Positions 13,576 through 42,351 of a stretch of 64,000 nt of DNA are shown here, one piece after another. The DNA comes from Paracyclopina nana (Eukaryota > Arthropoda > Copepoda > Cyclopoida > Cyclopettidae). The position numbers were made by a program, and so were the translations under genes. The notes below the pieces were generated by a model. The model did no database searches. It was not told the DNA's origin and saw only the letters and a list, made by a program, of their open reading frames with translations. Where the stretch lies: NCBI GenBank assembly GCA_019096065.1, contig JAGUCH010000007.1:5602501-5666500 (forward strand), in the 5' to 3' direction. How positions within the stretch are numbered: the first letter of the stretch is position 1; each line of letters starts with the position of its first letter.

Positions 13576-16009
13576 GGTGGTGAAAAAGTAATAAAGTTTC
13601 ACATCATTTACGGTGAAATGTTCAGAAAACTCAGATTGTGCGTATAGGGATGAAAATACAGCTGTGTGCTCCTCATGACATCCCTATTCTGGCCTGAGAG
13701 TAGAATCTTGCCTGCTTTAATAATTTCACTTTTGTTTCTGATGTAAGAGCTCAGTCCATCTGTTCCCAGAATTCCTATGTTCTCAAGAAGAGCCATCTTC
13801 TTCTCATCTGTACCAATACTATTTTCCACCTAGATCTTTTGAAAGAGTCTAGGGGAATAATGCCAAAGAAGGCATAAACCAAATCTTCACAGCCTTGAGC
13901 AAATCATCATCCAATCTTTGTGTCATTGAAATATTTTTATCTGCAGCTTCAAATTTAAGGTTGCGTCTATTTTGTAAATTTTTCTTAAAATATAATAATG
14001 ACGTAGGTGTTGGTGAAAAAGTAATAAAGTTTCACATCATTTACGGTGAAATGTTCGGAAAACTCAGATTGTGCGTATAGGGATGAAAATACAGCTGTGT
14101 GCTCCTCATGACATCCCTATTCTGGCCTGAGAGTAGAATCTTGCCTGCTTTAATAATTTCACTTTTGTTTCTGATGTAAGAGCTCAGTCCATCTGTTCCC
14201 AGAATTCCTATGTTCTCAAGAAGAGCCATCTTCTTCTCATCTGTACCAATACTATTTTCCACCTAGATCTTTTGAAAGAGTCTAGGGGAATAATGCCAAA
14301 GAAGGCATAAACCAGATCTTAACAGCCTTGAGCAAATCATCAACCAATCTTTGTGTCATTGAAATATTTTTATCTGCAGCTTCAAATTTAAGGTTGCATC
14401 TATTTTGTAAATTTTTCTTAAAATATAATAATGACGTAGGTGGTGGTGAAAAAGTAATAAAGTTTCACATCATTTACGGTGAAATGTTCTGAAAATTCAG
14501 ATTGTGCGTATAGGGATGAAAATACAGCTGTGTGCTCCTCATGACATCCCTATTCTGGCCTGAGAGTAGAATCTTGCCTGCTTTAATAATTTCACTTTTG
14601 TTTCTGATGTAAGAGCTCAGTCCATCTGTTCCCAGAATTCCTATGTTCTCAAGAAGAGCCATCTTCTTCTCATCTGTACCAATACTATTTTCCACCTAGA
14701 TCTTTTGAAAGAGTCTAGGGGAATAATGCCAAAGAAGGCATAAACCAAATCTTCACAGCCTTGAGCAAATCATCATCCAATCTTTGTGTCATTGAAATAT
14801 TTTTATCTGCAGCTTCAAATTTAAGGTTGCGTCTATTTTGTAAATTTTTCTTAAAATATAATAATGACGTAGGTGGTGGTGAAAAAGTAATAAAGTTTCA
14901 CATCATTTACGGTGAAATGTTCTGAAAATTCAGATTGTGCGTATAGGGATGAAAATACAGCTGTGTGCTCCTCATGACATCCCTATTCTGGCCTGAGAGT
15001 AGAATCTTGCCTGCTTTAATAATTTCACTTTTGTTTCTGATGTAAGAGCTCAGTCCATCTGTTCCCAGAATTCCTATGTTCTCAAGAAGAGCCATCTTCT
15101 TCTCATCTGTACCAATACTATTTTCCACCTAGATCTTTTGAAAGAGTCTAGGGGAATAATGCCAAAGAAGGCATAAACCAAATCTTCACAGCCTTGAGCA
15201 AATCATCATCCAATCTTTGTGTCATTGAAATATTTTTATCTGCAGCTTCAAATTTAAGGTTGCGTCTATTTTGTAAATTTTTCTTAAAATATAATAATGA
15301 CGTAGGTGGTGGTGAAAAAGTAATAAAGTTTCACATCATTTACGGTGAAATGTTCTGAAAATTCAGATTGTGCGTATAGGGATGAAAATACAGCTGTGTG
15401 CTCCTCATGACATCCCTATTCTGGCCTGAGAGTAGAATCTTGCCTGCTTTAATAATTTCACTTTTGTTTCTGATGTAAGAGCTCAGTCCATCTGTTCCCA
15501 GAATTCCTATGTTCTCAAGAAGAGCCATCTTCTTCTCATCTGTACCAATACTATTTTCCACCTAGATCTTTTGAAAGAGTCTAGGGGAGTAATGCCAAAG
15601 AAGGCATAAACCAAATCTTCACAGCCTTGAGCAAATCATCATCCAATCTTTGTGTCATTGAAATATTTTTATCTGCAGCTTCAAATTTAAGGTTGCGTCT
15701 ATTTTGTAAATTTTTCTTAAAAAATAATAATGACGAAGGTGGTGGTGAAAAAGTAATAAAGTTTCACATCATTTACGGTAAAATGTTCTGAAAACTCAGA
15801 TTGTGCGTATAGGGATGAAAATACAGCTGTGTGCTCCTCATGACATCCCTATTCTGGCCTGAGAGTAGAATCTTGCCTGCTTTAATAATTTCACTTTTGT
15901 TTCTGATGTAAGAGCTCAGTCCATCTGTTCCCAGAATTCCTATGTTCTCAAGAAGAGCCATCTTCTTCTCATCTGTACCAATACTATTTTCCACCTAGAT
16001 CTTTTGAAA
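13576..16009. repeat. 433-bp tandem satellite array, right part
   Basis: This is the continuation of the array beyond element A. The unit cut at 3217 resumes at 13576 after a 4-bp GGTG duplication, and about five and a half more units follow. The last full unit (about 15,562-15,995) is the most diverged, with GAGTAATG, GACGAAGG and GGTAAAATG variants, as expected at an array edge. Confidence 0.97.
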
Positions 16010-22377: not shown

Positions 22378-22899
22378 TTAATCAAATACATTATCAGAAA
22401 TTGGTGTCGATTTGTTAGAATTTTGCCCTTGTGATGATGATGATGATGTTTGTGAACGCGATACTTCTGGGATTGTGGATGGTATTGATGGTCTTATTGG
22501 TGGTGGCCGCGGCTCTAGCGGCGGCAGCAGATACCTTGTTGTTTCAGGCAGAGCTGGTGCAGTTGGTGCTTGTTGCAAGGGCAGTAGGGCTTTGTCTCGA
22601 TTGGGTTGTCTGTCGCCACTTCTCGTTCTTGAGCGCGATGTTTCTGCGAGCTTGTCTTGGCCCCCTAATATTTGCTGTGAGTATTCTTGCAACATTTCTG
22701 TTCCTGTTCTTCTTTTCCTTGTTGGTGGTTGAGCTATTGGTGATTGCGGCGGCGAGTCGTTGTTACCGTTATCGGGGATGATTTGGTCCTGCATATCATT
22801 CTTGTTTGGTGGGGTATCATTGTCGTCTTGTGACATGTGTTCGAACATGGTGCAGTCGTATTGTGGAATGGTTGGGTCGTCATTGAACGGTGGAATAGG
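22378..22899 (-). pseudogene. pol: Pol C-terminal tail of element B, cut off by the giant element
   Basis: This matches the last about 170 residues of element A Pol: acidic, then Arg/Ser-rich, ending ISDNVFD. It is separated from the rest of the same gene (42,352 onward) by 19.4 kb. The break falls at the position after GFPHAKDD in element A, so the insertion site can be read to the base. The target TAGG is duplicated (22896-22899 and 42348-42351). Confidence 0.92.
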
Positions 22900-23512
22900 T
22901 GCTCTGCGACACTGTGCCTTTACTCTGCACCTAAAGCCAGGGCCAACTCCAACTCTAAGCGGAGGCACTCGAGTCTAGCAAATATCTCAATCCTCTGTAG
23001 AATCACTCTGGTCGGGACTGAGCCTGATGGCATATATACAATGTTTTTGGGTAGACAGAGTACCAATCCTCCAAATCAGCACCACCATAAGGAGGAAGTG
23101 GCAGTGCCCAGCACTTGTCCTCCCACCAATGTGTTCCAAATCACTCCAACTGAGAAAGCCCTAGGCTTAACCCAGCTTCCTACATTCACTAAGGAGATCT
23201 GCAGGTTCTACCTCTTAGAATATAGTATAGCTAGTCTCAGTACATAATCCATTTATTCAAGCAGAGCCAGGAATAAAGTTGTCACAGAAAGAGCCCCTCT
23301 ATTGCAGGAGGGTACGTTGACTGTCTGACACCCTCTTCGTGACTCTCCCAGTCTCGCTCCTCTCCTCCGCGCGTCCCATCGCTCGTCTCCTTCAGCCGCG
23401 GCCCCATACCAGCCTTCCATAGGTAAACTTGTGTGCGCCGCCAGTTTAAGCTCTAGCCATATGCCGTCTTCTTTCTTGCGGTTTTTTAGGGAGGGCAAGT
23501 AAGCGTCCTCCA
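22900..23512 (-). repeat. Giant element 3' LTR (613 bp)
   Basis: Begins TGCTCTGCGACACTG and ends AAGCGTCCTCCA. It matches 41750-42347 throughout by eye, except for a net 15-bp insertion (about 23,482-23,499, TTTTTTAGGGAGGGCAAG). On the minus strand it contains AATAAATGG as a possible poly(A) signal. Near-identity of the two LTRs implies a young insertion. Confidence 0.94.
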
Positions 23513-23529
23513 TTTACCCCCGCCCCAGA
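23513..23529 (-). promoter_or_regulatory. Polypurine tract of the giant element
   Basis: On the minus strand the bases directly before the 3' LTR read CTGGGGCGGGGGTAAA, a G-rich purine run adjoining TGGAGGACGC. It is the expected plus-strand primer. It lies about 110 bp after the env-like stop codon. Confidence 0.75.
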
Positions 23530-23636
23530 AAAAGCAGCTAATGCCTCGATAAATTTGAAAGCATTAGATGAACCCTCCTAGACCAGATGATAAAGGTGGA
23601 ACCCACACATACTCTTTTAACTGAATCATAAAAGTT

Positions 23637-25513
23637 CTACACATTAGGGGCATCAGCAATAAACTTGCCTGCCTCTTCATTGTTACGACGAGAAGTATTC
23701 CTATTTTTGGGCTTCCGCCTAGGTAATGACTTCCTTAATTGATTGGCCAAGACATATTGTCCTTCTCCAATCTCCATATAGCAGCAATAACACATTCGTT
23801 TCCTCTTGATATACATGATGACCAATAAGGCTATTGCACATGTAGATCCAAGTAAAGAAGTAGTAAGCACTACCCGCCAATCATCAAATATATCATCATC
23901 ATCCTGTTCCGGATACTTAACAACAAACTTGTTTAAGTCTGTCTCCCATGGGCTATGAAAGTCACCAATTTTCTGTCCATCAACATTAATACCACAAAGA
24001 CTTGTCACTTTATACGATCCAATAATTAGCAAATGAGCATTATTGAGGGTACCCTGGCAAGTCCTGTTAACAAATGTAGGCGTAACCACATTAACAATAC
24101 CAGCATGTTTTGGGCAGTTTGTGTTCAGTAACTCATTTGAAGACACATCCACCAGATTACATGCTTTATCCGGGCTCAAAGTTGACAATCCAAAGAGAGC
24201 TTTGGCAGTTAATTTGGGCCTCATCAGGTACATAAGCTGGATCATGGCAAACACTCTGTCCATCATGCTCAAAACAATCATTGTATTGGGGCAAATGTTC
24301 AGTAGCATACATCAGTTCACCAAATTTTGTCACATAGGTCTCCTTTATGGCGTACCCACCATATGTGCGACCTTTTAATTGATAAGTCAATTCCATATTA
24401 TCACTAATACCTTTGACCCTCATTTTGCCACCAACAATAGCATCATTTGGGTCTTCGGTATTTTCCACGACAGTAAAGGAGACAGGAGCCAAAGCCTTCT
24501 GCTCGAGCTCAGCACCTCGATCCCCTTGTACTTCAGTATTCAAGGGCATTATGAATTTGTCATGGTTTCTCCTGATATCTTTTGCAAAAGAAGCAATAGT
24601 ACCAATGACATCCATCATCTGCATAAAGTCACTAGTCCTAGTCCCGTGCAATTTTCTTGAGTGTTGTAATTGCCGGAGTAATGCAACTGCATTTTCCACT
24701 ACATGTGGCAAATGTAATTTGATAGCAGTTTTAATCTTATCATTCTGGAACACCTTCGATGCTCCTGAAGTCACCATGATTTTTAAGGCATTAACTGCCT
24801 TTTTGAATCACCGATGTTTCCTTATTGATTAAGGCAACTCTGTCTTGTAACTCCCATTGTTCTCCCTCTATAGTTGGAGATGGGAACTTCACAAAATGTC
24901 GCACACACATCATACCATCCACTATTGCTTCAGTGGGTGGATACAGTGAAAACACGGCAGGTGATTGGGAAAAGTCAAGTATAAATGTAGGAAAACCTGC
25001 AAGTATCTTCGGAGTATTAGTACTGGTACTCGGTTGGCCCAGAGTTTTAGTTGGGTCCAACACTGGGAGACCATGGTGTACTATTTTTGCATCCAAGGTC
25101 GTTACCAACCCATAAACTTGTGTAGCTTTTACACTCACTTTCCATTTATCTTTCGATCCCTTCACAGAATCCACCAGATTGGCCACTTGTAAAAAATCAT
25201 ATTTTGACATTGGTTCAAATCCTTCAAATCCAGGCAGTGACTCTTTGCATGTTTTGTCCATGTCAGTGGGGCTCACATCTCGTAACAGAGCAAGCACCTT
25301 ACCTTCAAAAGTCACATAAGGAACATTAGTCAAGTTGACTGGCCCTAGATTGGCCATCATCTCTTCCACATCATTAACAACAGTACTTAAGGCCTCCTTA
25401 TACTCATGTGCATCAATCACTTCAGTAGAAATCACCTCTTTAGTGTGATACAATGAGCGAATCGGGTCCAGCATATGATCTTCAAAACATAAAGGTCCAA
25501 CATTGTCTTGCAC
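23637..25513 (-). pseudogene. env: Env-like glycoprotein of the giant element (frameshifted)
   Basis: Three overlapping or adjacent open frames run in order: 25513-24791, 24777-24166 and 24308-23637. The first break is at a short A run near 24,800. The second lies in the overlap around 24,170-24,300. Together they cover about 600 residues. There is a helical region after the first break, Cys pairs (CFEHDGQSVCHD, NTNCPKHAG), N-glycosylation sites and one membrane segment (VVLTTSLLGSTCAIALLVIM). A Cys/Lys/Arg-rich tail (KRKRMCYCCYME) follows. This is a type I glycoprotein layout. A hydrophobic ATG-started peptide near 25,568 lies in another frame and could be the signal peptide. I see no clear resemblance to Env of elements A-C. 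Confidence 0.65.
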
Positions 25514-25843
25514 AAGTGCAGACCAATTGTAAATAAAAGTTTCACCAAGAAAAGCCTTGCACTAAACATGTTTTTTACTCGTTGTCTAGGCCCAGACTAA
25601 GCATGAACTAGTCAGTGAACTACAATATATAGAGATGGATCAAGGTTTTTTTACCTCAGCGCGCTCATATTGAATATATTCAGACAGACAGACCAGAAAA
25701 AGTTGATTTGTTAATCGCAACGTATACAGCGTAACTCTCTCAACCTTTCCTATAAATTCAGAACCTTAGGATCACATTTTTGGGAAAAAATGTGCCGAAC
25801 AAAGTTATTTATTAAATCATATACATTTGCGAATCATCAAAGA
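25514..25843. other. Spacer between env-like gene and 445-aa ORF
   Basis: 330 bp, AT-rich. It holds the possible env signal-peptide frame (ending near 25,568 on the minus strand) and probably 5' sequence for env expression. Nothing else is recognisable. Confidence 0.4.
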
Positions 25844-27181
25844 TTACTCAATTGCATCAGGCATAACATTTTCAAGCAAAATCTGCAAGGCCTCCTCGAT
25901 TTGAGCCTTTTTTGCGGAATCTTGCTTCATAACACTATCCAACTTTTTAAGGTTGACACTTAAAGGGACTGTAGAATTCCCTTCACTAGATCCAGATCGA
26001 GGCCGTTTAGCAGGGCCTTGATTCACTACTTTAGCATAACTCAAGGATGGGGTCACCTCCTTGAATTTATTCAATTTACGTCGAGCTGCCCTCCTTTCCA
26101 AGAAGGCTGCATCAGCTTCAGTTTTGGCACCATTTGTAAAAAATGATGCCTTAGGAAAATGCTTCTCCAGTTTGGATATAAATTCTGCCTTTTCACCGGC
26201 ATGGGAAAGGGACATGTTAACCTTAAGAGGTATGGCTGTGGGAACCACTTGCACACCATCTGCGGCAAAAAAATCACCCATGCTGCACACGTACAGGGTG
26301 CACGCAACCGAACAGTAGTCAAGGTAACAGTTCACATTCTCGTACGACTTATCCAAAGCCACAGTAAAGTTGACTGTATTCCCTTGAACCCAAGTCACCA
26401 AACCAACCAAGGGCTTCTTGGTAGTTCGATAAAGGGACGAGCCCACCACATAAGAGGACACTGCTCCAGTGCCCTTCAACGGACAAAACACTTCCAATGG
26501 AGTGGGTTGATTCACATCTCCCACATTAATCAAAGGCAAAGTGTTCATCTTCAAATATAGGACTACGTTTAACAGTCCCACCTTACAGGAATTGAACTTG
26601 ATGGACATCCCCGACCGATTGTGGACCTTGATGGGCCTCATAGCAGTCGGAGTCACCATGGCTTTATTATCAATGAAGACAGTATAGTCCACTTGCCCCA
26701 ATGATGAGCAGGACTCACGTGGTTTGACCTTCTTGAGAAGAAAGTCATCGCACGCTAGTTGGTTTTTAGACCGCAAATCTGCCAATATTGGCATCCACTT
26801 AGCTTGCTTGTCAGGGAAAAGCTGACCAACCAAATCCATCAAAGGCAGGGTGTAACCAAGCTCACAAGCCTCGGCCACCAACTTCTCCTGCTCAGTCAAG
26901 ACAACGTCCTGCAAAGGTGCAACAGCTGGGGGAGGAGGTATCTCCGCACCAACTTCCATTGGACCTGGACCCGCTTGGCCTTGGTCCACTATCATTCCAG
27001 CAACATTGGCAACGTCTCCATTAGAGGCTTCTGGAGCGGCCATTTCCATGTCCGAAGGCTCTGTTTTAGGAGAGCCGGGCAAAGCATCCACCACAGGAGT
27101 TTGGGATGAGAACTTTTTTCCTTTCCCCTTACCCTTCCTGCGGCTGTCATTAACGGTTAAACTAGCAAAGTTGAAGTCCAT
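25844..27181 (-). CDS. Orphan 445-aa protein of the giant element
   Basis: Starts at ATG 27181 and is fully open. The basic N-terminus (RRKGKGKGKK, a possible nuclear or RNA-binding signal) is followed by a Pro/Gly/acidic linker. A compact, probably beta-rich middle (about residues 150-330, including VDYTVFIDNKAMVTPTAMRP and CYLDYCSVACTLYVCSMG) follows, then a basic segment (ERRAARRKLNKFK) and a helical C-terminus. There is no signal peptide or membrane span, so it is probably cytosolic or nuclear. I recognise no family. An extra protein between pol and env is unusual for animal LTR elements; nucleic-acid-binding, silencing-suppressor or movement-like roles are guesses. It lies back to back with the plus-strand gene at 27,668, with 486 bp between them. 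Confidence 0.75.
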   Translation of the reverse strand: MDFNFASLTVNDSRRKGKGKGKKFSSQTPVVDALPGSPKTEPSDMEMAAPEASNGDVANVAGMIVDQGQAGPGPMEVGAEIPPPPAVAPLQDVVLTEQEKLVAEACELGYTLPLMDLVGQLFPDKQAKWMPILADLRSKNQLACDDFLLKKVKPRESCSSLGQVDYTVFIDNKAMVTPTAMRPIKVHNRSGMSIKFNSCKVGLLNVVLYLKMNTLPLINVGDVNQPTPLEVFCPLKGTGAVSSYVVGSSLYRTTKKPLVGLVTWVQGNTVNFTVALDKSYENVNCYLDYCSVACTLYVCSMGDFFAADGVQVVPTAIPLKVNMSLSHAGEKAEFISKLEKHFPKASFFTNGAKTEADAAFLERRAARRKLNKFKEVTPSLSYAKVVNQGPAKRPRSGSSEGNSTVPLSVNLKKLDSVMKQDSAKKAQIEEALQILLENVMPDAIE

Positions 27182-27667
27182 AGTTAAAAGGTACGATCAG
27201 CAAGAGGGAGTAGCTGCAACTGACTACAACATTTCTTCCTCGAGCATTTATACCATAGGCTGTAGCGACTATTCCCACTGCAGTATACCTCAACTCAGGT
27301 GAATAACAGTTTCAACAACCTCAACGACAATTAGTTAAAAATGATTGCCTTCCTGTTGAACTAAAGACTTGTATGGGAACAAAACAACAGGTGTTGTTCA
27401 GCTCCCCATTTTACTGCTGCAAAATTGTTCCTATGGAGACAATTTTTCCATGTTTTACAATAAATGCATCACAGTTTTGAATGAGTCATAAAAGCTCAGA
27501 AGCAATTTGATCATTCTTTATGCTGCGCTTGCAAGTAAAACAGTTCACACATGCACGTTTTAAAAGCTTGCCCAACGGACTGCAACAGTGCTGCTAAGCT
27601 CTCAGAGATAAACTCATTCCAGTCCCAGCTCCAGAAGCATTCACATTGAGTAAGAGCATTCTTCAAA
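27182..27667. other. Divergent intergenic region, possible bidirectional promoter
   Basis: It separates the minus-strand 445-aa gene from the plus-strand three-exon gene. It is AT-rich and includes ACAATAAATGC and several T/A runs, but I see no clear TATA/initiator pair. The promoter role is inferred from gene orientation only. Confidence 0.35.
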
Positions 27668-28545
27668 ATGTATTTTTGGGTGCCTCAGCAAACCAGCCCT
27701 GTAGTGGGTAACTCATCAATGGTCCCCACCCTTGCATCGGATGACGACAAGGTGGTTTCCAATGAGCCCATAACAGAGACCACTCTTATTCAGGTAAGAC
27801 AAAGTCTATAATAAAATTATCATATGGTCACAATGCATTCCCACATTCACAGGGAGTGTCCAACAGCGGAGTAAACCTCACTTTGGTTTCCATGCAAGAG
27901 TCTCCAACTGGAGACTTTAATATGGCCGACCATTCTCAAATGGAGAATGATTCTCAGGCCCAATCAAATGTGACACTGTCACAGCAAGATTCTCAAAGAG
28001 GATTCATGGATGACCTGGCCTTGCGCTTCCACAACATGGACTTTCTATCCATTATGTGGACCACTGCAGCCTTTTGCACTCTTGTGGTGAGTTCTATTCC
28101 CCATGAATTTCATACTTTCATGAAAGACTAATATATCCATTTCCAGCTATGCCTTATTGGCATTGGATTTGGCCTATGGAAATTGTTCAGGGTCTGTCAG
28201 ACCTGTCACAGACGACGGTCTGGCCAGCAACAGTGGAGCATGTTGCTAGGAGAAAGAAGAGTCCATAATGAGTATAATGCACCTCCCATCATGCCTCTAG
28301 AAGAGGTTCCTGGGGGCGGCGGTGGGACTCCCATTCCATTGTTACGCACCCACAATCAAACTCAGATTAATCCCTTTCAAGTGGATTCCAATGGTTTGAT
28401 TTGTGGCATGAGCCCAGATATTTGGGCCACAGCTGTGGCTCGTGAGGTCCTCAGGAGGGCTTCAGCGTTTCCGCAGCCTCATCATCAACAGCCTCAAGGA
28501 ACTCGCAACAGTTCTTTGGAGAGCTTCCAATCCATTCCTCTTTGA
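27668..28545 (+). CDS. Antisense three-exon single-pass membrane protein (252 aa)
   Basis: Exons are 27668-27793, 27853-28086 and 28147-28545. Introns of 59 and 60 bp have GTAAGA...CACAG and GTGAGT...TCCAG ends and are in phase 0, so the joined frame is open from ATG to TGA. The N-terminus (about 95 residues) is polar, Ser/Asp-rich and glycosylatable. One hydrophobic segment spans the exon 2/3 junction (MWTTAAFCTLV then LCLIGIGFGLWKLF). A Cys/Arg juxtamembrane motif (CQTCHRRR) and a Pro/Gly/Ser-rich tail follow. It runs opposite to gag, pol and env. Its function is unknown. It could be an accessory gene of the element or a captured host gene. Confidence 0.65.
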
Positions 28546-30067
28546 CTCAAGAGCTCATGTGTTTCACACTCAGTATTTTAAGTAGTTTTTTCATGTATGA
28601 TAGCAAAAACAATGCAAAAATACACCATTTTCAAACCACTCATGAACGTATACTTCATTATAAGTATTTTGGCATTTTTTATCAAAAGCCATCAAGAGTA
28701 TCTGGTAACTCTATAATGTGCAACATAATTCTCTCTTTGCGCTTTACAGTTCAACAATTTTTGAATCATAAGCACAAAGCATATCATCCGTTAGATATTG
28801 TGAGAGTTTCCACAGATTGCCTTCACTCAATATTGTGCAAGGTAATCATCATTATCTATCATCATTCGACCGTGAGAACAAGCCAAAGCCTGTTTCAGAT
28901 CAGTAATTTCCTGTCATTAGTTCAGCCAAATACCAGCTACTCGGCGTCATATGAAAAAGTTTCACTTTTCCATCAAGTTAATCTAACATATGTTAGAAAA
29001 TTGCAAGCAAAGCTATGAAGACTATCTAGCTTGCTCATCCCAGGTCAGCAAAGGTCACTTCTTCAAAGAAAGGCAACGATTTGTATCAAATATCACATGG
29101 CCAGCACATTATTGTGTAGCACAGCAATAAATTTCCTTTCATATCAGTTGCATGAGAGCAATTTAATGTACCACCTCTCTCCCCCATATCAAAAAAGAGA
29201 AGAGCAGACAAAAATGTAACACTGACACAGACAGTTTAAAGTTTTATATGATCAAAAAGGGGTACGCAAGCAGGAGTGTAGCAGCGGTAGCAAGCGTATC
29301 CTTCAAAATGGCATAAAGTGCAAGTAAGAGTTCGTTAGATCAAATCAATTATGCAATGTGATCCCTGAGAGTTCAAGGATTCCAAAAATATAAACAAAAT
29401 TGAAATCAATGGCAGGCCATATAACCATGACATGGCATATAACACTTATCATAAAAAGTGCCACATTTACGTAATAACAGTAGCACTCTGCAAAATCGAA
29501 TAAAATCTAGGCAAGAGTTTGTAAGATCGAACCACTAGTGGAATGTGATCCCCTTGGGTGCAAGGATTCCAAAAATATAAACAAAATTGAAATCAATGGT
29601 AACTCATAGTACATATGACAATAGAAATGTGAATATTGATCATCAAAAGTGCCACATTTGACGAGAGAACAGTAGCTCTCTGCAAAAGGGCATAAAAAAC
29701 CGAACCAGAATTCTTTGTCATGAAAGTTTTGGAAGTGTCATTCCTGAACGTTCAGGGATTCCAAAAACATAAACACAATTAAAATTGGATGTAGTTTGTA
29801 GGAGACATATCATTGTACAGTGAACACAGGAAAAGTGCTCTCTCGCGTATAAGAAATAATCTGAGAAAAGAAACATGACATGAATGCAAACTTGTTTTAA
29901 GCCACTTTTTCTGAATCATATACATGAATAGACCCAGGAGCTAAGTTCCCCTGAGGTTATTCAATTGTAAGGGGGATGGTTCCCCACAAAAACATTATTC
30001 ATGAGCTTCAAGCGCAGCAGCTTTCTGCTCAAGTACGGAAAGGCTTTCCAAGCTCATGATAACACTA
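28546..30067. other. Noncoding block with three degenerate repeats
   Basis: No coding sequence is supported; the plus-strand ORF at 28,542-29,018 has no coding features. About 29,276-29,800 holds three diverged units of about 190 bp. Each unit carries GATTCCAAAAATATAAACA (29,375; 29,563; 29,757) and upstream versions of AAGTGCCACATTT and TCTGCAAAA. It could be a 3' UTR or regulatory region for the flanking minus-strand genes. Confidence 0.6.
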
Positions 30068-32015
30068 TCACCACTTTTGGCGGTGTAACCTGTATAAATC
30101 ATCATAAGTGACATTTAACTTTTTCATGGGCTTGATTAGCTCATCATTAGTAGCATCAAGACCCATATTAGTGAGAAAAGTAACATAATCATCAGGAGTT
30201 CCGATTTTCCTGTTATCTTTGTACTTTTGCAAGTTTTTGAAATAATGTTTAGCAGCAGATTCATCAAGGGGTTTTCCCTTTGACAAATGCTCCTTGAGAA
30301 AAATCTGGTCATTGCGAGGAAGGTCATTTACTCGCTTATTTCCAGGTTGGTAAACCAGCCTTTCAGCGTAAGGTCTATTTTGTCGATAATTTACACGAGG
30401 CAAATTACGAAGTTGCATGCCATGTTTTGGAGGTGTAACAGGTTCATGCATAGGTGAAAAACTTTCTTCCTCTCCAACAATGCTATCCTCCGCATATGTT
30501 GGAGTGGCAACATTCTCAAAGATCTCTTCAATCGGATCATTGTTTTCCATATCCTCAGGCAAAACTTCAAGATAATCCGGAGCCAACTTTAATTCAGCTC
30601 CAATGGATGATTGTCTTGGTTCATTAGACATCCGATAAAGATGTATTAAACTTTCACGAGTAGCAGGTGAAAAACGATGAGAATCTGCAAAGTTTTTGTC
30701 CAAGTGAGTTAGGAAATCCTGCTCACTCTCAAATACTTTGAAGTCCTCTGACAGCCTCAAATGGCCCAAAGATGTACCTACACCAGAGAGGTCATCGTCA
30801 AAATAATCTGTATTAATCTTATTTGCAAGGTCTTGAATTTCCTTATCAAGATTTTTTGATGGAGATTCCAACTTTGAAACCACATCATCGATTACAGAAT
30901 AAGATTCATCAAGAGACAGGTTAGAAGCAATGCTGTTGCCAGCATCACGTCTGCCACGGAAAGCTCTACCAATAGGGCTTGGTATTTCAGGTAAAGAATA
31001 ATTAGAAGTATCATGGACTGGGGTAGATCCAGCTTCTGGTGGATGAGCTGGCAGTCCACTTCGAGCACTAGCTAATTCATCAAAACCAACTGTATCAATG
31101 TCCTCATAGATATGAGATCCAGATCCAGATGATGTTACATTACCAGATGCGTTTGACGCTACATAAGGTGAGGCATAAACAGGAGATTCAAGCTGCCCAA
31201 CCTCAACCTTATTGTCTATTGGCAGCTGATATTGCATACTTAATTGGTCATTAACCGGCTGGACCGTAACAGGTTCTAAAGGTGAAAGTGCAGGAGGATC
31301 TTGGCTAAGCGCCTTTGCGGGCAATTGTTCACTTGGATCCTCATTTCCAACTTTAGATTCATTTCTATTATCTTTTGTATACTGTTTCCAATCTTCCAGA
31401 ATCATAGCCTTATTTTCAGCTTGAATCCGGAGCACATTGTCAGGCTTAAACATATTAATAGTTTTCTTCACCAATGTGGACTGAGTCCTATGGTGTGTTT
31501 GTAAACTATGATGTGTTGAAACACCAGTTGAAGATGTAGTAGTAACTAAATCTTCATTAATGGAGGCTGTACCTTCCTTTTCAGGCTTATTGCGCAAATT
31601 ATAAGATTTTACGCTACCATCAACAGATTCCAGAAAATGCAGGATTTCTCCTCTAGAATACTTTGCTTTTAATTCACTAGGTGAATAAGTACGCATTAAA
31701 AGTTTAGTAACTTTCTCGGGCAAGAATTGATACAATTTGTGAAATCTATAATTCTTGAGCTGGCTGAAATGAAATCGACGTTCACGTCCAGTGCCCATAT
31801 AAGGTTTCACATATACATGAGTATTATGTATTCGAACAACTTCATATAGCTCTTTTAAGAACTTGTAGGAATGTTTAGACCCAGGTAGGTCCTTTACATA
31901 GCAAAAACTTCCCACTTCAGGCTGAAGTGATAAGCGTTCAGTAGCTTTCATGATAGCGAGTTTTTCTCGTTCCTCTTTATCATGTTCCTTTATAATCTCT
32001 TGCCAATTAATCTCA
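30068..32015 (-). pseudogene. pol: Integrase C-terminal module plus long low-complexity region
   Basis: The frame is open through the MITE boundary at 32,015. Its ATG (31951) is probably internal to pol. The first about 110 residues look like a retroelement integrase C-terminal fold: PEVGSFCYVKDLPGSKHSYK, then YEVVRIHNTHVYVKPYMG and RFHFSQLKNYR. The remaining about 500 residues are Ser/Glu/Asp/Pro-rich and probably disordered, comparable to the acidic tail of element A Pol but longer. A single TA duplication at the MITE ends shows that it was in frame with the 37,926-32,410 ORF before the insertion. Pol would then be unusually long, well above 2,400 residues. Confidence 0.75.
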
Positions 32016-32017
32016 TA

Positions 32018-32407
32018 CAGTCTGACCGTTCAAAATTGGACGGTAAGGGAATCTAAATGTTTTGACACATATTCAATAAATACAGGACTTATAAATGATA
32101 TCGTTGGAAAGATTGAGCCTTTTTCCATCTTTTTTGTAAAAGTAGAAAAAATCAATTGAACGAGGAATAAACCGGGAAAATTCAATTTTCCAAAGGCAAC
32201 TCAGAACACTGTCACGAAAAAACTGATGCATCATTTATTTTTTTGCTGTCACGCGGAATTCTCAATAATATTTTTCATTTTGTCAGAAAACAAAAAAGAT
32301 GTCCAAAGGTTCAAGCTTTCCAACGATACCCATTAAGCCTCAAAATTCATGAAATCATAACACAAACTTTTGATTCCCGCACCGTCCAATTTTGAACGGT
32401 CAGACGG
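32018..32407. mobile_element. 390-bp MITE inserted in pol
   Basis: Terminal inverted repeats are CAGTCTGACCGTTCAAAATT and, from the other end, CCGTCTGACCGTTCAAAATT, extending about 35 bp. TA is duplicated on each side (32016-32017 and 32408-32409). There is no coding capacity. The TA target and TIR size suit a Tc1/mariner-type MITE. A truncated second copy lies at 55,141-55,202. Confidence 0.88.
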
Positions 32408-32409
32408 TA

Positions 32410-35400
32410 TAGTTTTTCATGAGTTTCATCTAAAATGTCGAGTACATCCTGACCAAGGTAATGAACAGGAGCCCTTGACAAAAACAAAGAAAAAGGGGTA
32501 GGAATGACCTTAACCCCATTTTTATCAGTATAACTCAATGATGTCAAAGGACGATGATTCAGAGAGTATACTGTTAACTTGAATATTTCACTCATAGGCT
32601 TATTGTAAGTCTTTGCGTTTAATATTAATGCATTTCGTAAAAACTTAATGCTGCCTTCAGCATATACGTTACTGTGGACATGCGGGCTGGTTGTGTACAT
32701 GCCTACTGGGTGGACCCCATAAGTTTCAATCAACTTTTGTAGCGCATGATTGGGTAACAACTGACTCCCATTATCACTTACAAGCACCTTAGGCCGCCCA
32801 AAGGCACTAAAAATATCTTCCATTGCTTCAGCTACATGCACATATTTCGTGCTTAGTAAGGGCCGAGCAATAATAAGCTTAGAATAAATATCTACCATTA
32901 CAAGACAATTTGTTGCATCTTGGCCTTTTATCAGAGTTTCCCGAAAAGAAGCCAAGTCCAGCATTGCAAGGTCAAAAGGCTTAGATGGGAGAGGAAATCT
33001 TCCTGTCCCTAAAAACCTAGTATTAGACTGCCTGTAAAGTGCACAGTGTACACAGGCTCCAATAATTACTCTGCTCACTTTTGCTGAGTAAGTTGAATAC
33101 ATAGTCTGGGTAAAGATCAAATGTGTCTTTTTACTCCCCAAATGGTTATGCAAGAGGTGTATTATAGCCATAAGATACACACAGTTAGGTAACGACATAT
33201 ACACCTTTGTATTAGAGGGTGTCGTAAAGGGTAACTTTACATTTTTCCTTACGACTAGTAAGGAAGCATCTAAAACACGATATTTGCTCATAAACTCTGT
33301 TGGAATAGAGTTTCGATCAGCCATCATCATGACATTAATTATTTTTTGAGTCTCCTCACACCTTGATTGGAGTCGGAGAATCAAATTTCTGGTAATTCCA
33401 GGCAAGTTAGGCGAAATATTGAATTTCACATTCACACCTGCCACAGATACCACATTTTCTACTAAATTCACACATGAATTACGTGTGAGTTCATCAACAC
33501 TAGAATATGCAACCACATCTTCGGACTTGCTATCCACAAGTATGGAAGCATTATCATCATAACAAAATGGAGGATTTTCACCAATAAGTTCCACCCATTT
33601 ATCATTTAAACAATCCAATCGCTTTTTTAATAGCGACTTGGACATAGTTCCACTATTAACCAAAGTATCATAAACATGGGTAAGAAGCTCTTGGGTTGTC
33701 AAGATACCTTTGGCTATATGCTCAGGAAGAGGGTATTTACCATTATAAATATCCTTAGTAATTTGCGAACTTATTGAATAAGGTGCAAAAAATAAGGTTT
33801 CACCATCAGTTTGATGATACTTATTTAGTAACACATCTACCACTTCTATTTCAGTACGAGGCACTGCTCGTAATTTCCATGAAAATGGCAGAGAATAAAG
33901 TCGGGCTGCAAGCCTATTTGTATAAGCATCTTTCCCTGTGAATGAGCTTGCTAATACGCTTGCAATTGCCAAACAGTCAGTTACAATAACTACTCTCTCA
34001 TAAGCATACAAGAGACGTTTAAAATGAGTGACCATCATAATAATTCCTAGGGCTTCCCTTTGGAAACTATGATAAGACAAGCACACACTTAATTGAAATC
34101 TTGCAGAATGCACTCCGATGCACATAGCTTTGCCATCAGCGCCAATCTCCATAATTAAAGCAGATGTAGATATTACACCTGAATCAACTATTAAGAAACA
34201 TTCTTCATAAGAAGGCATTGCAAGAGATAATCCATTTTGAATTTCCTCTAATACCTTATAAAAACATTTTTCTTGAAAAGGTGTGAAGATAAACCTCCCG
34301 GTTTTTCCTTCTTTAGTAGCAAATACATCCAGCATAGGGCTAGTAAATGTTGCCATACTGGGACAGTACTGGCTCAACCAATTTGCCATTCCTAAAAACT
34401 TTTGCAATTGCTTGCGAGTTTTAGGTATTGGATAATCCTTAAATGATGTGCGATACTTTTCCGGCATACACATAAGGAGAACACCATGTTCATCAATTGT
34501 TAATTGATGTCCAAGCACAATCATTTCTTTAACAGCTATTTTTGTCTTTTTAATTGCAAGTAGGGCATTTAATTTCCTCATGCTTTCAAAAAGAATCTTG
34601 ATATCCTCAAGATGCTGTTTATAATCATCTAGACTTGCAGGCCTTGTAGGCCCATGATACTTACAAGCAAGAACCAAGTCATCAATGTATGTTCCAGTGC
34701 GATCAAGGATCTTGGGATCGATTGCTTGCTGGATTAAGGTTGAAAACTCAAATGGAGCGACTGCGCTGCCTTGAAATAATGACTTAGATTTAAAATAAAA
34801 GCCTCTATAAATTGACCTTGGTGACGTCACTGCCATGCAACACATGTCAGCTGAGTCAGAGTCAACTCGTACATTATCATACCCTCCACTTACATCAAAG
34901 GCAGATAGTAAACATGCACGTGAAAACATTGACATAAGGGAGTCCAATGGAGGAACCATATGTTCAGATGTATTAAAAATCAAGTTACGATTAAATGCAG
35001 TGAGGTCAACCAATAACCTTGGTTTCCTTTCTTTGTAAGGTAATTGTGCATCATTGGGACGCGAAGTAAGAAAACAAGGACTGGCTGAATATTTATTCAG
35101 AGACTTGTCCACAACTTCAATCAATCCTGATGACAACATCAAAGCTATTTTTCTATCAAGTAAAGCAGTAGCATCCTGCCCCATATTAAATAGCTTTGGT
35201 ACTAGAGGAGTGTCATCTTTTAATTGAAATTTAATAGGCTCATTTGCCCATAAGCGAAAGTTTCTCGGTTCCTCACTTAGAATATCTGAGTACTCAAATA
35301 ACACCTTTCTGTATTCAGACCGTATTTCCTCTGGTATATGGTCCAAATCGAACTCATTCAATGTCTTTTCCCTAATTGGGATAACATATCCATTGATTCC

Positions 35401-37926
35401 ATTCATAACCTTGGATGAGCTAAACTCGCTTGGATAGCTCAACAAAAGGTTGTAAACTTCATCATATAATTCCTGATTATTTGCTTCATCTTGGGTATAT
35501 TCAAGATGAGCAGAAACAAGGTCCAAATCAGAAGTATCACGTAATATTGTTTGTCGATATCGGTGATCTTCTATCTGGCCTTCAAATACATTTGTGTGCG
35601 ACTTAGGAGGAACATACTCATCATTCAATTTCCCCAAGCACACTGCACAACCACAAAGCTCAGGATTGTACCTGAAGCTTTTGAAAGTATACTGTGTTTT
35701 AATATCATTAGAAACACTAGGATGGGGATAAAAAGCCAGTGCTGAGAGGAGAGTAAGTGCAGCTGAGACTGCAAAACAAACCGGCTCTGTAGCACAGGGC
35801 TCTGCGTCCATTAATGTTTTAATCAAAACTTTACTACCACTACCCTTGAACCTCAGTTGGCCAAGTATGGTATATACTAATGTAGCAATATACCCCCAAT
35901 GGGTACGCCTGTTTACATCAACATGCACAATAATATTGATATTATTGGCTAATTTATACATTATCAATGGTGATCCATTTAAATTCAATTCATAAAATGG
36001 AGCATCAATATTTCGTTTATACACAAAGCCAAAGTTCTCATACTTTTCATGCATGATTATTAGCTCAATATATTCATACCCTTCCAGGTATGTGTCTATT
36101 GGGCACAACCCAATGCTAAGACACTCTGGACAGGTGTTATTAAACTTCATCCATGCAATAGTTAGCTGTTTTACTAATTTATTGCAGTGGCGTAAAATAC
36201 GTTTTTGTTCTCCAGCTAACATAACTCCAAATGGAAGTAAGAAAACCCACTTCTTAGTTTGGAGGTTATGCTTAGTAAGAAATTCACCAATATAGTTATC
36301 AGTTACCTCTTTAAATGAATCAGATTGATTAGAGGCAACAAACACAAAATTATCAATGCATGACATTTTTGGCCTTGTTTGCCCAGTCATTGGTTTATAC
36401 TCACCAAATACATGGTGATTAGAAAATGTAAGCCCATTTATGTCGGTAAATTGGGCTATAATGTTATTCTTGTCATTTACATAATTACAATAGCACTGCG
36501 AGTCATCAGCCTTTATTGACCTGATGCTAAAATTCAACTCATGAACTTTGGAAGTGCTACGATAATTCGTTTTAGAAACTACCTTAGCAGTTCCTACCAC
36601 AGTAATGGCATCAAGCCTAAACGGCATATCGGATTTATTTCCAATCATGATGGGAAAGGATCCATGTCTATCAATTAAGCTAACATTTCCCATAGATGAC
36701 ACACCTTCAAAGTCATCAGAAGGAACAAATTCTACACATTTGCCATGGAAGTTTGTATAAACATTTCCTTCGCTGTCTAAGTTGTCAGGAGTATCATCTT
36801 CCTCATCAGAAGAATCCAATTCAGGGATTAGAGGCGCTTCATGCACAAAATGTGCATTAACAACCTTTTCTTCACCTGGTAATAATGAAATACTAGCAGT
36901 TATTGCCACAGGGTAAAAATCCTCTCCAGATAAGGTTAAGGGTATCTTTTTGTACTTAGGTTTTCCAGGGAAGTCAAGAAAATATTTTCCTTGTCTGCTG
37001 GTTAACCTTACATCATTATCGACAAAAAGTGCATTGCTGATTAACATTAAAGGTTCACAATTAGTCAAAATAAATGTTGCCTTCCTAACAAGCATATTTG
37101 ACCCAATTATCAATTGTATGTCAACTGCTTCTGTGGAAGGTACATTTTCTCCACTAAAATTCTTTATAATATAATTTTGATGAACCCTAGGTAGTTTGTG
37201 CCCTAGTTTTCTCTCAATTATATTCAACAAAGTATATGACATGACTTGGATCATTGACCCAGAATCAAAAAGAGCATGAAGTCTAACTGGTCCTGGAGTT
37301 TTCACTGGTATGAAAAATCTCTCTTGCAGACCCGTTAGTCTCATAGAATGAACACTCATGGTATCGTCGTCACATGTGGTTTCAAGCTGTGAAGTTTCAC
37401 TTTGTTTTTCCACAAGCAATTCTGAAACATATGCCACATTTTCCTGGCAGCTAGCTTCAGATTTTAAATCACCGTCATGGTGGGAAAGTAATTTGGCTTC
37501 ACAATCATTATCTGTCGTAATTTCATGTGAACCATCCATTTCAACTTCCTTTGTTGGAGGTTGATCGAGCATAGTAATAATTCCTACAGCAATACTTGCT
37601 AACGCTAGTTTATTTGGTAGCGACAACATAAATATAGCTGGCAGTGCTGCTGCGCCCAAAGCACCATAAAATAGATATTTATTTATTTGTATGGTGTCAC
37701 ATTTTTCAGGTTGAACCTTTACCTCATCACATTTAACTGTAATGGGTTCACTTTTTTCATCAACATAATGACATAGTGCATTAACTTTACCATCATTATT
37801 CAAATGGGCTTTGGCTAATTGTCTCAATTTTGCCTTATGCTCCAAAACACTGAAGCTGGCTTTGCCAACTTCTTTATTACAAATACCCCTCATAAATGAG
37901 GGAAGTTCATAGCTTTTTTCCGCCAT
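32410..37926 (-). pseudogene. pol: Giant element Pol: protease, RT, RNase H, integrase core
   Basis: It starts at ATG 37926, directly after the TAA ending the Zn-knuckle ORF in the same frame. The nominal 1,859-aa ORF ends inside the MITE, so the native C-terminus is cut. In order: a long hydrophobic segment at residues 83-118 (unusual in Pol); protease with LHALFDSGSM (about 220); a linker; RT from about 900 to 1,150 with FDVSGGYDN, LFQGSAVAPFE and YIDDLV (about 1,080); RNase H with VDSG, REALG and VTDC (about 1,245-1,316); an H2C2 integrase zinc domain (LLHNHLG...CVHC, about 1,590-1,627); and a DDE core with LDLASF, VSDNGSQ and an E in NVYAEGS (about 1,656, 1,715, 1,755). RT and integrase look Ty3/retrovirus-like but diverged from elements A-C. 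Confidence 0.85.
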
Positions 37927-40456
37927 TTATTTCTTAATAGATGGTTCTTTACGTCCTGGTTTATTTTTCCAGCAATCCAAACCATCCATGGCCTTATGCA
38001 GGCCACCACAAATATCACAACAAGTTCCATCAGCTCTTGCTGCACTAAAGGGCATATTCACATAGTGAGGACAATCCTTGGCAATATGTGAAGCCTCATT
38101 GCAAAATATACAAGTGCCCGTTATCCAGGGGCCATATTTCTTACCAGCTGCTCCAGCAGCATTAACTACATTTTTCCCAGCTTTTTGCCGGTCATTTGCT
38201 ACTTGCATAGCAGCAATTTTTGCATTTTGTAACTCATATGGTCTCAACCATTTCTGCAGACACACTCACCATGGAGCTATTTGAAGCTCTAGATGCACTA
38301 GAAATAACACTGCCAACCTGACTGACTGAGTCTTCAGGATAGACATCAATGGCAGCAATTTTTGCTTTACGTCCAATATCAGGGAGAACAGGAAGCCTAT
38401 GATCACGAGCTCCTCTTTGATCCTTTTCTTTTTCAGGATCCTTTCTCGAGGAGCGCACATGGGACTGAACCACAAGTTTATTAACAACATTAATAAATGC
38501 ATTGTAAGCCTCAGCACTTCCTGCTGAGATGCCCTTTTCAAAGCATAATGTGTCAAACTCACGTAAGACCGCAGTTTACACATATGGATAGTGCATCTGG
38601 ATGAATGCCATTCCATTATTAATGGTGTTAGCGAAACATGTGTCGTCAGATCCCAAGGAACCCTTAGCTTCAAACAACTTGGTTTCAAGTTCCATGAGAG
38701 TACCCATGACTGAATAGAAGTTTTTAGTCTTATCAGCAATGGTTTCATGAATTTTGCGTTGGACAGCTCCAACATCAATGACCATTTGATGTCCCATTTG
38801 AATGTAGTCCCAAATGGTTGATAACCTTTGGTTTCGAGACCACATTAAACGGAGACGATCAGCAGTCCTTTCAGTTGATAAAGAACAAAGCACATGCATA
38901 GTAGCTTGATGTGCCCAGTTGTTTGTCACGGCTGCATTGTAAATTGCAGTCAAAAAGATATTAACAAATGTAGCACTGTGTGACTGATCGACATTGAAAT
39001 AATTATTTCTTTGTGATTTGAGCACATTCCTTATATCACTGTGGGAAGGTTGTAAAACTGACCCATCAGGAGGAAGGCTCACATACAGTGCATGCAATGA
39101 AATGTCCATTGAGGACCTATTTGCATCTTGAGCAGACTCATTTAAGGCTTTCAAGCCATAATTGGTCTCTGCTAAAATGACACGCAATTTTGCATCTAAA
39201 CCAGGATCCCCTTGGAGATATCCAAGGATACCTTTCATTTCATTAACTTGCTCAGCGTGAGTGAGTCGAGGGTTAATCACCTGAGATATAGCCCTCTTGG
39301 CTGACTCAATGCTGGTAATTTCCTCTGTATTCACTCGAGCAACTTTTTCACTAAATGACAGGTTGTGGGCTGGAGCCACATCCTGTTTCTTTGTACGATC
39401 ACGAAAACCAGACACAATAGCCATAATTTTTGACTCAATGTGTTTTCGTCTCATATCAAGCATATCTCCTGGAAATATGTCATGTAATTCATTTATCTGA
39501 GTAATAATGCGTTCAGCGGTTTTGCTATCAAAACGTTTTGCAAAATAAGCAAATACCCGCTGTTCCTCATCAGCGTTCAGATCATCTCCATTGTACAACT
39601 TTTTTATTATGATGGAATCATTAAGTGATGCAGCTTTTGATCCTGTGGTGGTATCAAAACCTCCTGCATTACTCCTTTTATTCTCATCAATCATAGTACT
39701 AGCAAGCATGCCACCGATTTGCGGTGGTCCCAAAATAGAAGACATATTACCAAAGTGGACAGATTTGGAGGCATTTTGCGATTGTTCCAAATTGTCAGAC
39801 TCACTAACAGATTCATTTCCTGTGGAATCTAAACCAAGGTTGGCTGCATTTGTTCCAAATAATGCAGCAACACTTGTCAAACTCTGGCTTCCAGGGCTCC
39901 ATTGTGCCTCAGAATTGTTAAAACCATCAGCAATTGCTTTATACAGCTCCTCAAATTCAAACTCTGCACGTTTTGCAATACTTATTATGCCTGCAAAACG
40001 GTGGAGTCCAAAAGTCCCCAGAATCAATCCAGCAAGTATCAACAAGGGATTACTTTGCCGTGTTTTTTGAACCAGCTTAGTAATATACTTGAGTACCAGA
40101 ATTACCATAAGATATGGATTTGCAATATATTTCATCATGTTGGTGAAGATGACATCAATGTGTTTTGTCACACTCACAGAAATATCAGTAGAGACAGTGG
40201 AATCTCTAGATAATTGCACATCAAGGACTCTCATCCAAAGACCACCGACTGTGTCAGCATCAATTGAGGCCTTGACAATCGTTTCAGTCCAATTTAGAGC
40301 TGCAAGTCCTGCCTTGGTTTGGCTTGACAGCTCACTCACATTAAAAGTAAGAGTCTGGACTACAGCATCAATAGCTGCCTCCTCCAATCCAGTCACAGCA
40401 GACAAAATCACATACAAGGGGTTAACCTTGGCTTGCATATTTGTCGCCATTGCCAT
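37927..40456 (-). pseudogene. gag: Giant element Gag with Zn knuckle (one stop, one frameshift)
   Basis: I chose ATG 40456 (MAMATNMQ...); the frame is open upstream only from a TTG. The N-terminal third has two hydrophobic segments (ANPYLMVILVLKYITKL and NPLLILAGLILGTFGL), which is odd for Gag. A Ser/Asn-rich linker follows. A helical region with capsid character (LPPDGSVLQP...MHVLCSLSTERTADRLRLMW...WDYIQMGHQM) runs to an in-frame TAA at 38,576. The same frame continues afterwards to 38,234. A frame change near 38,260 leads into the nucleocapsid part with CIFCNEASHIAKDC (C-X2-C-X4-H-X4-C) and a second Cys/His cluster (CCDICGGLHKAMDGLDC). That frame ends in TAA at 37,927 and pol begins in the same frame at the next codon. 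Confidence 0.78.
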
Positions 40457-41728
40457 TTTTTTTAAATTCCAGAACGAGTTCTTATCAGTGCTCAAACTAG
40501 AAGATAAATTACAATTCAAAGATTATCACTAGGATAAACCTTTTTAATAGAAAAGGCTGTAGAACAGCACTAATACCAAACTGGTAAACCAGTTATCAAT
40601 ACAAAACTAGAGAACTAGTTTTTCAATGAGAGGTTCAACAACAGAACCTCCTCCTGTTTAGTACAGGGAAACTTGGAAAGCAATTGGTTCTTAGGTTATG
40701 CAGACAGGCACAACCCAGATGCTCTCCCCAACAAGCTCACAACACGCTCACACAATCTCAAGCACACAAAGAACAGGGTTGCTGGCTCCCTTGGGAGCCT
40801 GTTTTGTTTAACCAGGCGGACCTCTTGATGCTCCTGTCGACTAGTGCACCAAGGTAATCCAGATGTTGTGTGGGGGTTTTGAACAGAAACAGTTTTTGGA
40901 ACCTCGTTCCCACCAAACTACCAGCTGTTGTAGCAAGGTGAAAGATAAAAAACACTTATTGCGACCTGTACATGGACCAGTCTGATTACCAGTCCAAGGC
41001 CCTTCACTAACACTTGTTAAAATTGGTTCGCACTAAATTCACTTGCACACTATCACCTCTCTAATAGGTGATCTTCTCTTCCCAGTCCAGAAGCACAATG
41101 GTCGTAGCACTTCCTTCAAACTTTTGGCCCACTGACTTTCTTTTTGCATCTGTGGCCTCCCAGATTAGCGTAAGGGTCGTCGTGCAATTGTCCAAGCCCT
41201 GATTAACTTTTAAATCCACTCGCCAAAGAGTCAGTGTTTGGTATAGCAAGAAGAGGGGGGAGGGCACCACTGCTCCGGAGCTACTAGACGTCCACACGCT
41301 GGGATATGCGTTCTTTGTCTCTAATTTCGCCTCCTTGGACTTATGTGGTCTTCAAATATGTGCGCCAGTACCTGGTACCTTAAATTGCACACACACTTGG
41401 CAACGAGACGCTTTCTTCAGGTCGACCAAAAGGCGATGGTGTGCTGTCTCAAGGGGTGATCGAAGTTCTGACAACAATCGTCGCCATTTTATTTTCTCTT
41501 TACCGTACCACTTGCCTCTACCCAACTCCACCTCTACTCCTCAAGTTCGCCCTGAATTGCTCTTCTCCGATCACTGTCCGATGGGCTGTAGGACTCACGT
41601 TACCTTTGCCAATCACCCAACGAACCATGCACCATCTTGTGCCAGACAATGATATCTTGAAATGATAGTCCTCTCACTTCTCACTCAATTGCCGATCGAG
41701 GGTGGGATCCCCGGATGCTTCTGCAGGG
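40457..41728 (-). other. Giant element 5' leader
   Basis: 1.27 kb between the primer site and gag. No supported ORF; the plus-strand frames at 41.3-41.65 kb look accidental. It is expected to hold packaging and splice-donor signals. Several imperfect ACTGGTNNACCAGT-like inverted motifs occur near 40,575-40,620 and 40,970-41,010. Confidence 0.55.
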
Positions 41729-41746
41729 ATCCCGGTTGAGCCCCCA
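41729..41746 (-). promoter_or_regulatory. tRNA-Pro-type primer binding site
   Basis: The minus strand reads TGGGGGCTCAACCGGGAT, three bases after the 5' LTR. Its complement ends GAGCCCCCA, as expected for the 3' end of a tRNA-Pro. Murine leukaemia virus-type elements use a nearly identical site. This fixes the orientation and internal boundary of the element. Confidence 0.88.
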
Positions 41747-41749
41747 AAA

Positions 41750-42347
41750 TGCTCTGCGACACTGTGCCTTTACTCTGCACCTAAAGCCAGGGCCAACTCC
41801 AACTCTAAGCGGAGGCACTCGAGTCTAGCAAATATCTCAATCCTCTGTAGAATCACTCTGGTCGGGACTGAGCCTGATGGCATATATACAATGTTTTTGG
41901 GTAGACAGAGTACCAATCCTCCAAATCAGCACCACCATAAGGAGGAAGTGGCAGTGCCCAGCACTTGTCCTCCCACCAATGTGTTCCAAATCACTCCAAC
42001 TGAGAAAGCCCTAGGCTTAACCCAGCTTCCTACATTCACTAAGGAGATCTGCAGGTTCTACCTCTTAGAATATAGTATAGCTAGTCTCAGTACATAATCC
42101 ATTTATTCAAGCAGAGCCAGGAATAAAGTTGTCACAGAAAGAGCCCCTCTATTGCAGGAGGGTACGTTGACTGTCTGACACCCTCTTCGTGACTCTCCCA
42201 GTCTCGCTCCTCTCCTCCGCGCGTCCCATCGCTCGTCTCCTTCAGCCGCGGCCCCATACCAGCCTTCCATAGGTAAACTTGTGTGCGCCGCCAGTTTAAG
42301 CTCTAGCCATATGCCGTCTTCTTTCTTGCGGTGGTAAGCGTCCTCCA
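41750..42347 (-). repeat. Giant element 5' LTR (598 bp)
   Basis: Same ends as the 3' LTR. It is followed by the TAGG duplication (42348-42351) and the resumed element B pol. It should contain the element's promoter on the minus strand. Confidence 0.94.
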
Positions 42348-42351
42348 TAGG

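Follow-up and report, generated by a model that had tools for sequence, protein, structure and literature searches.

Elements of the Ty3/Gypsy group (Metaviridae), including the env-bearing errantiviruses, carry long terminal repeats (LTRs) bounded by TG..CA, make a short target duplication, use a tRNA primer and encode protease, reverse transcriptase (RT), Ty3-type RNase H and integrase in that order. Burro of planarians is a giant Gypsy-like animal element and suspected provirus, whose single huge polyprotein has apoptosis-type domains and, in the part separating gag from pol, an Env-like region (PMC6431247). Antisense genes are known from human T-cell leukemia virus (HTLV)-type viruses and plant Retand elements; Retand and Grande have a long region from pol to the 3' LTR with conserved antisense open reading frames (ORFs), mostly carrying TRP28, and no sense ORF there is described as encoding a membrane region (PMC11963269). 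CERV of the Caenorhabditis elegans element Cer1 is a nuclear protein needed for the export of unspliced RNA, made from a spliced mRNA that shares gag exons (PMC10309623). Lokiretroviruses and Odin, LTR elements of animals, are intermediate between retroviruses and retrotransposons and have a dual RNase H; lokiretroviruses have an env whose product resembles mononegavirus glycoproteins (PMC9040795). Troyka has a 3-bp duplication and CG..CG termini (PMC12440569). Here we describe an LTR element in a 64,000-nucleotide stretch (the window) of contig JAGUCH010000007.1 of the copepod Paracyclopina nana. It very probably represents a family of Ty3-like, env-bearing retroelements, recently active and about 18.9 kb long, in which, judging from the reading frames, both strands are coding. 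Its anatomy is secure; the functions that we infer for two of its genes, encoding a 445-amino-acid (aa) orphan protein and an antisense product, are put conditionally throughout.

The element can be delimited to the base, as the first-pass annotation had claimed: its LTRs, TAGG duplication, primer site and polypurine tract were all found again.

22900-42347, minus strand: whole element, 19,448 bp in this copy
41750-42347, minus strand: 5' LTR, 598 bp
22900-23512, minus strand: 3' LTR, 613 bp
42348-42351: target duplication TAGG (plus-strand letters), 5' side
22896-22899: target duplication TAGG (plus-strand letters), 3' side
41729-41746, minus strand: primer binding site for tRNA-Pro(UGG), 18/18
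23513-23526, minus strand: polypurine tract GGGGCGGGGGTAAA

Both LTRs are bounded by TG..CA and align with 597 identities and 1 mismatch; a single gap, of 15 bp, lies near the start of U3. These 15 bp are missing from the 5' LTR of the window copy, whereas its 3' LTR keeps them, as do the 613-bp LTRs of the other copies. The primer site, separated from the 5' LTR by TTT, matches at 18 of 18 positions the reverse complement of the 3' terminus, with CCA added, of two tRNA-Pro(UGG) genes that this genome carries; this bears out the priming by tRNA-Pro proposed earlier. In the genome (91,952,342 bases in 10 contigs were searched), the tRNA-Pro end pattern had nine matches, with acceptor TTGAGCC in two, CTGAGCC in five and ACGAGCC in two; all four of these that were fetched were identified as tRNA-Pro by ARAGORN. 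Since the primer-matching acceptor TTGAGCC occurs in just two of the nine ends, the primer fits a particular isodecoder. A 16-mer of the primer site occurs nine times in the 92 Mb: seven times at LTR-bounded copies of the element, once at an older LTR and once elsewhere; this last site was considered as a tRNA gene and ruled out, since it is none. The element had been said to interrupt the pol of a neighboring Ty3 element (element B), and the joined flanks indeed read through in one of three frames.

By the first-pass annotation's own account, failure to find further copies sharing its internal genes would have told against it; six such copies exist. The LTR had 23 matches in the genome, including six further LTR pairs, giving seven LTR-bounded copies with that of the window. 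Perfect 4-bp duplications flank six of the seven, every one different; the 3' LTR of copy C8 lacks its last 19 bp, hence it has no readable duplication. The LTR pairs are identical in four of the seven copies and differ by one base in copy C6b, and the C8 comparison took in foreign bases at the missing end of its 3' LTR. Such near-identical pairs indicate recent insertion.

By piecewise comparison, three copies reach about 27 to 28 kb through inserts of about 8 to 9 kb at differing places, and shorter inserts lie in C9 (some 450 bp) and C2 (some 370 bp). Copies C6a and C8 have no insert of such size. C6a measures 18,894 bp, and the native element is about 18.9 kb long. The copy in the window exceeds this mostly because of a miniature inverted-repeat transposable element (MITE) foreign to the native element:

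32018-32407, 390 bp: inverted-repeat MITE with a TA duplication, inside pol

The MITE is absent from all six other copies (in C6a and C8 the empty site was inspected base by base) and belongs to a high-copy family, with at least 40 near-full-length members, that of the window included, among the best 40 of 510 genome candidates. The 19.4 kb first reported thus stands for this copy and does not hold as the native length. A usual Ty3 element is about half as long. Given the nested inserts (the MITE and those of the other copies), an ordinary Ty3 element of 8 to 10 kb could have been lengthened by them, with the orphan gene, antisense gene and spacer as passengers of one copy. We give this explanation almost no credence: C6a reaches 18,894 bp without any large insert, the orphan gene and the block at 28000-30000 are present in seven of seven copies, and the orphan gene and env recur in other lineages. 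An architecture common to copies and lineages rules out a passenger origin of the gene set.

The gag and pol genes have the following parts.

37927-40456, minus strand: gag, frame-broken in this copy
37924-37929, minus strand: contact of gag stop and pol start, TAAATG, identical in 7/7 copies
30068-37926, minus strand: pol, interrupted by the MITE
37579-37674, minus strand: N-terminal hydrophobic segments of Pol, upstream of the protease, a possible membrane anchor
37258-37266, minus strand: protease DSG, within pol
34678-34689, minus strand: RT YIDD, within pol
33043-33159, minus strand: integrase HHCC, within pol

Gag is a single 848-aa frame in five of the six other copies and has one CCHC-type motif (Pfam zf-CCHC, E 0.28, under the cut-off). 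Pol is ordered as protease (DSG at residue 221), RT (RVT_1, 1000-1141), Ty3-type RNase H (RT_RNaseH, 1241-1327) and integrase (HHCC; rve, 1670-1739), followed by about 650 aa that comprise the end of the integrase and a low-complexity C-terminal tail. The tail ends in VTYDDLYRL here and in the similar LTYDDLYKL in lineage L044. What had first been taken for a separate low-complexity extension of Pol is the end of pol severed by the MITE, since C6a, alone among the copies, has a single pol frame of 2,488 aa; the others have inserts or frame breaks. In the window copy, gag, pol and env are broken, and the orphan gene and the antisense exons are open. The ratio of nonsynonymous to synonymous polymorphism (pN/pS) was 0.13 to 0.29 for parts of pol and 0.42 for a part of gag.

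The contact between the gag stop and the pol start was found in all four lineages sampled, as TAAATG in that of the window, TAATG in L047 and L049, and ATGA in L048; the frame relation of the two genes varies among the four and the contact is constant. The residues just after the pol ATG are also conserved: L047, L049 and the lineage of the window have LPSFMRGxCNKEVG, and L048 has LPPFMQG. Hydrophobic segments lie near residues 80 to 130 of Pol in three of the four (window, L047 and L049). From this arrangement, we infer that Pol would be made as a separate protein by reinitiation after Gag. Foamy viruses likewise produce Pol separately.

By its best scores, the element is Ty3-like. Compared with PDB, its RT-RNase H matched Ty3 best (62 and 60 bits), followed by chains that, on our reading of the virus names, are spuma-type (37.5 bits), caulimovirus-type (36 bits) and otherwise retroviral (26 to 28 bits). 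Against the Ty3 elements beside it, the same region scored 45 bits (element C) and 29 bits (element B), while C and B scored 392 to 416 bits against each other; these weak scores indicate that the element, though Ty3-like, is distant from the common Ty3 elements in its neighborhood. Some retroviruses have an env, a tRNA-Pro primer site and gag and pol parted by a stop. The element resembles them in these features, which would suit an animal genome harboring a genuine retrovirus or a lokiretrovirus, and a retrovirus-like affinity had been suggested at first. Against such an identity, which we consider highly unlikely, Ty3 scores 62 bits and no retroviral chain exceeds 38, the only RNase H found is Ty3-type, and Env is unlike the adjacent Monjiviricetes-type Env discussed below.

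The same anatomy separates the element from its closest described counterparts. It shares the LTRs, TG..CA termini, short duplication, tRNA primer and Pol order of Ty3/Gypsy elements, and departs from them in its orphan protein, its antisense spliced gene and an Env with no known relative. Unlike Burro, it has separate gag, pol, orphan and env genes, with env after pol. Like Retand and Grande, it has a long region from pol to the 3' LTR with an antisense gene, here together with an env and encoding a predicted membrane product; within the last antisense exon, Pfam at E values up to 1 found no match in the portion 28183-28542, and thus no TRP28 there. Cer1 is also Ty3-like, with a novel basic-motif protein downstream of pol (PMC10309623), whereas neither env nor an antisense gene figures in the account of Cer1 used here, and the likeness of CERV to the orphan protein is one of position and motif. 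In contrast to the dual RNase H (a tether and a new domain) of retroviruses and lokiretroviruses, Pfam at E values up to 1 found no second RNase H, and Env, which in lokiretroviruses is akin to mononegavirus fusion glycoproteins, has no Pfam match here. The 4-bp duplication and TG..CA termini differ from those of Troyka. In the literature searched (subscription papers and repeat libraries lay outside its scope), where the nearest comparisons were Burro, Retand, bdelloid, Odin, Troyka and Cer1 elements, we found no description of this gene set, nor of any animal-type Ty3-like elements with an env in which a membrane gene on the antisense strand is spliced and under selection. Set against known families by their descriptions and by best scores, the lineage is apparently undescribed.

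The genome holds many relatives of the element. At least 113 RT matches were found, of which at least 61 cover at least 360 of the 367 residues: 6 at 99 to 100% identity, 47 at 64 to 68%, 1 degenerate at 57%, and 7 at 50 to 51%. These counts are lower bounds, 111 of 342 candidates having been scored. The orphan gene and env recur in lineages with RTs 50 to 68% identical, and L044 and L045, each read in one representative, have them in the same order, orphan then env. The L045 lineage, with a 2578-aa pol, carries two related DUF5662 genes after pol (L045:262-894 and L045:1028-1771, plus strand), a family with 16 matches in the genome.

Downstream of pol on the minus strand are the following genes.

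25844-27181, minus strand: 445-aa orphan protein, open in 7/7 copies
23637-25561, minus strand: env, in this copy three overlapping frames (24791-25561, 24166-24807 and 23637-24311)

The orphan frame has a pN/pS of 0.21, against 1.71 and 1.12 in its other frames, and its product is homologous across lineages (BLASTP 6e-13 to L045). It has 81 matches in the genome, 7 at 97 to 100% identity and the rest at 22 to 79%. Open in every copy, constrained and recurrent, it bears out the orphan protein first annotated. A basic motif (AKRPR, AKRTK, AKRSK or SRRPE) follows the core of the protein at the same place in all four lineages aligned. By analogy with CERV, and with no membership implied, we tentatively suggest that the 445-aa protein may act in the nucleus on unspliced RNA. 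A structural role, as a matrix protein or partner of Env, has a modest likelihood too. In its favor, env follows immediately after the gene in those lineages that were read; against it, no membrane segment was found in the protein, and the basic motif in all four lineages would fit the nucleus.

The presence of env, also noted at first, is confirmed by a single frame of 653 to 686 aa in five of the six other copies (it is broken in C9), by recurrence in other lineages and by 66 matches in the genome; pN/pS is 0.34 to 0.35 in its parts. A related Env occurs in a more distant lineage, L046, whose RT is 26% identical (hhalign probability 96, E 7e-9). In L046, the related Env (L046:7289-9319, minus strand) is overlapped by a 219-aa frame (9180-9836, minus strand), which from its appearance we presume to be SGNH-hydrolase-like.

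The opposite strand between pol and the orphan gene has three open exons.

27668-27793, plus strand: proposed first exon of the antisense gene, not established as an exon
27853-28086, plus strand: second exon, with the first half of a membrane helix
28087-28146, plus strand: intron 2, GTGAGT..CCAG, site of frameshifting indels
28147-28545, plus strand: last exon, with the second half of the membrane helix and a tail
28546-30067, minus strand: spacer without a constrained frame (28650-29250 tested)
29301-29421 and 29488-29608: 121-nt direct repeats within the spacer

Both introns are in phase 0 (GTAAGA..CACAG, 59 nt; GTGAGT..CCAG, 60 to 61 nt). Across the seven copies, pN/pS is 0.26 in exon 2 (0.72 and 2.86 in its other two frames) and 0.34 in the last exon (0.68 and 0.74); the spacer control at 28650-29250 gave 0.76, 1.03 and 1.22. 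The low values, being frame specific, indicate constraint on the last two exons and leave the first not established. Frameshifting indels are confined to intron 2, with one base in the window copy and one in C8, and the sole exonic indel is an in-frame 18-nt deletion common to two copies. Intron 2 interrupts the membrane helix, and at the same point of such a helix L044 and L045 are likewise split by a phase-0 intron (GTAAGT, CAG), making three of three lineages. A search with the L044 exon gave 62 genomic matches, of which 51 extend over 129 or more of the 146 residues, and 44 of these 51 are without a stop. An RT lies within 18 kb of 50 of the 51, in all 50 cases with the exon on the opposite strand and downstream, 9.1 to 15.8 kb away; the remaining exon has no RT match nearby. 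This count used the compiled RT list, from which the near-identical members of the window lineage and numerous small fragments had been omitted.

On this evidence, the antisense gene looks real, and we claim conservation of its place and structure between lineages, with no claim of sequence homology. The first-pass annotation had described a spliced antisense membrane gene; two constrained exons and the intron within the helix uphold this, and the gene is best read as having three exons, of which the first does not stand as established. The antisense frames might instead be chance open frames in a spacer, as the unconstrained first exon and the want of an antisense sequence match between lineages would allow. 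Frame-specific constraint, indels that are intronic or in frame, the shared intron position and the 44 stop-free exons make this improbable.

Several observations weigh against the overall interpretation. The full pol frame exists in just one of seven copies, and the hydrophobic pair of Pol was not found in the fourth lineage, L048. Neither the orphan protein nor Env had a match beyond chance in Pfam, NCBIfam or PDB, and thus neither has a known relative there; the single-sequence fold of the orphan protein was unusable, with a mean predicted local distance difference test (pLDDT) score of 36. Scans of viral contigs with the orphan protein and RT confirmed no relative. The proposed first antisense exon is without clear constraint (pN/pS 0.70, against 0.60 and 0.88 in the other frames), a genome search with the window exon matched the seven copies of the element and nothing else, and the antisense exons of the window and L044 fail to align.

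The gene order suggests how such an element might work. The LTR would drive a genomic RNA; copying would start from the tRNA-Pro primer, and integration would use a 4-bp stagger. Ribosomes finishing Gag would restart at the touching AUG and yield a separate Pol, which the N-terminal hydrophobic segments present in three of four lineages may bring to the membrane, the site of particle formation. Env, a predicted type-I membrane protein, would carry particles from cell to cell. The antisense gene would probably be transcribed from a promoter of its own into a single-pass membrane protein; a part for this product in counter-defence is doubtful though conceivable, and we would say the same of a part in particle release.

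Other features of the window are set down here for completeness. Two neighboring Ty3-type elements have an Env of the Monjiviricetes fusion family PF24664 (3421-5901 and 20108-21952, minus strand; E 5e-72 and 9e-70), a type of Env capture reported for mosquito Pao elements (PMC7642597). Kinship of the Env described above with that of one of these neighbors, element A, was not borne out: only a 24-residue membrane stretch aligned, at probability 0.9. A satellite with a 433-bp period forms two arrays (1-3217 and 13576-16009), 98 to 99% alike within each, and 15-bp minisatellite arrays at 55524-56634 have units that are mutual reverse complements, arranged head to head. Rfam, at gathering scores, had no match in the whole window.

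These elements may form a family-level, infectious-type animal lineage that is ambisense. Its antisense strand would carry a spliced gene for a membrane protein that the element requires, the gene separating pol from env would serve a dedicated nuclear function, and Pol would be reinitiated and self-anchored, all kept since RTs now 50 to 68% identical split; this is a plausible reading, to which we give somewhat less than even weight. With its recent origin and the dozens of relatives found in a single genome of 92 Mb, the family would offer a test case for the reading of a 19-kb retroelement on two strands, the packing of a separate Pol and the acquisition of genes by elements of this kind.

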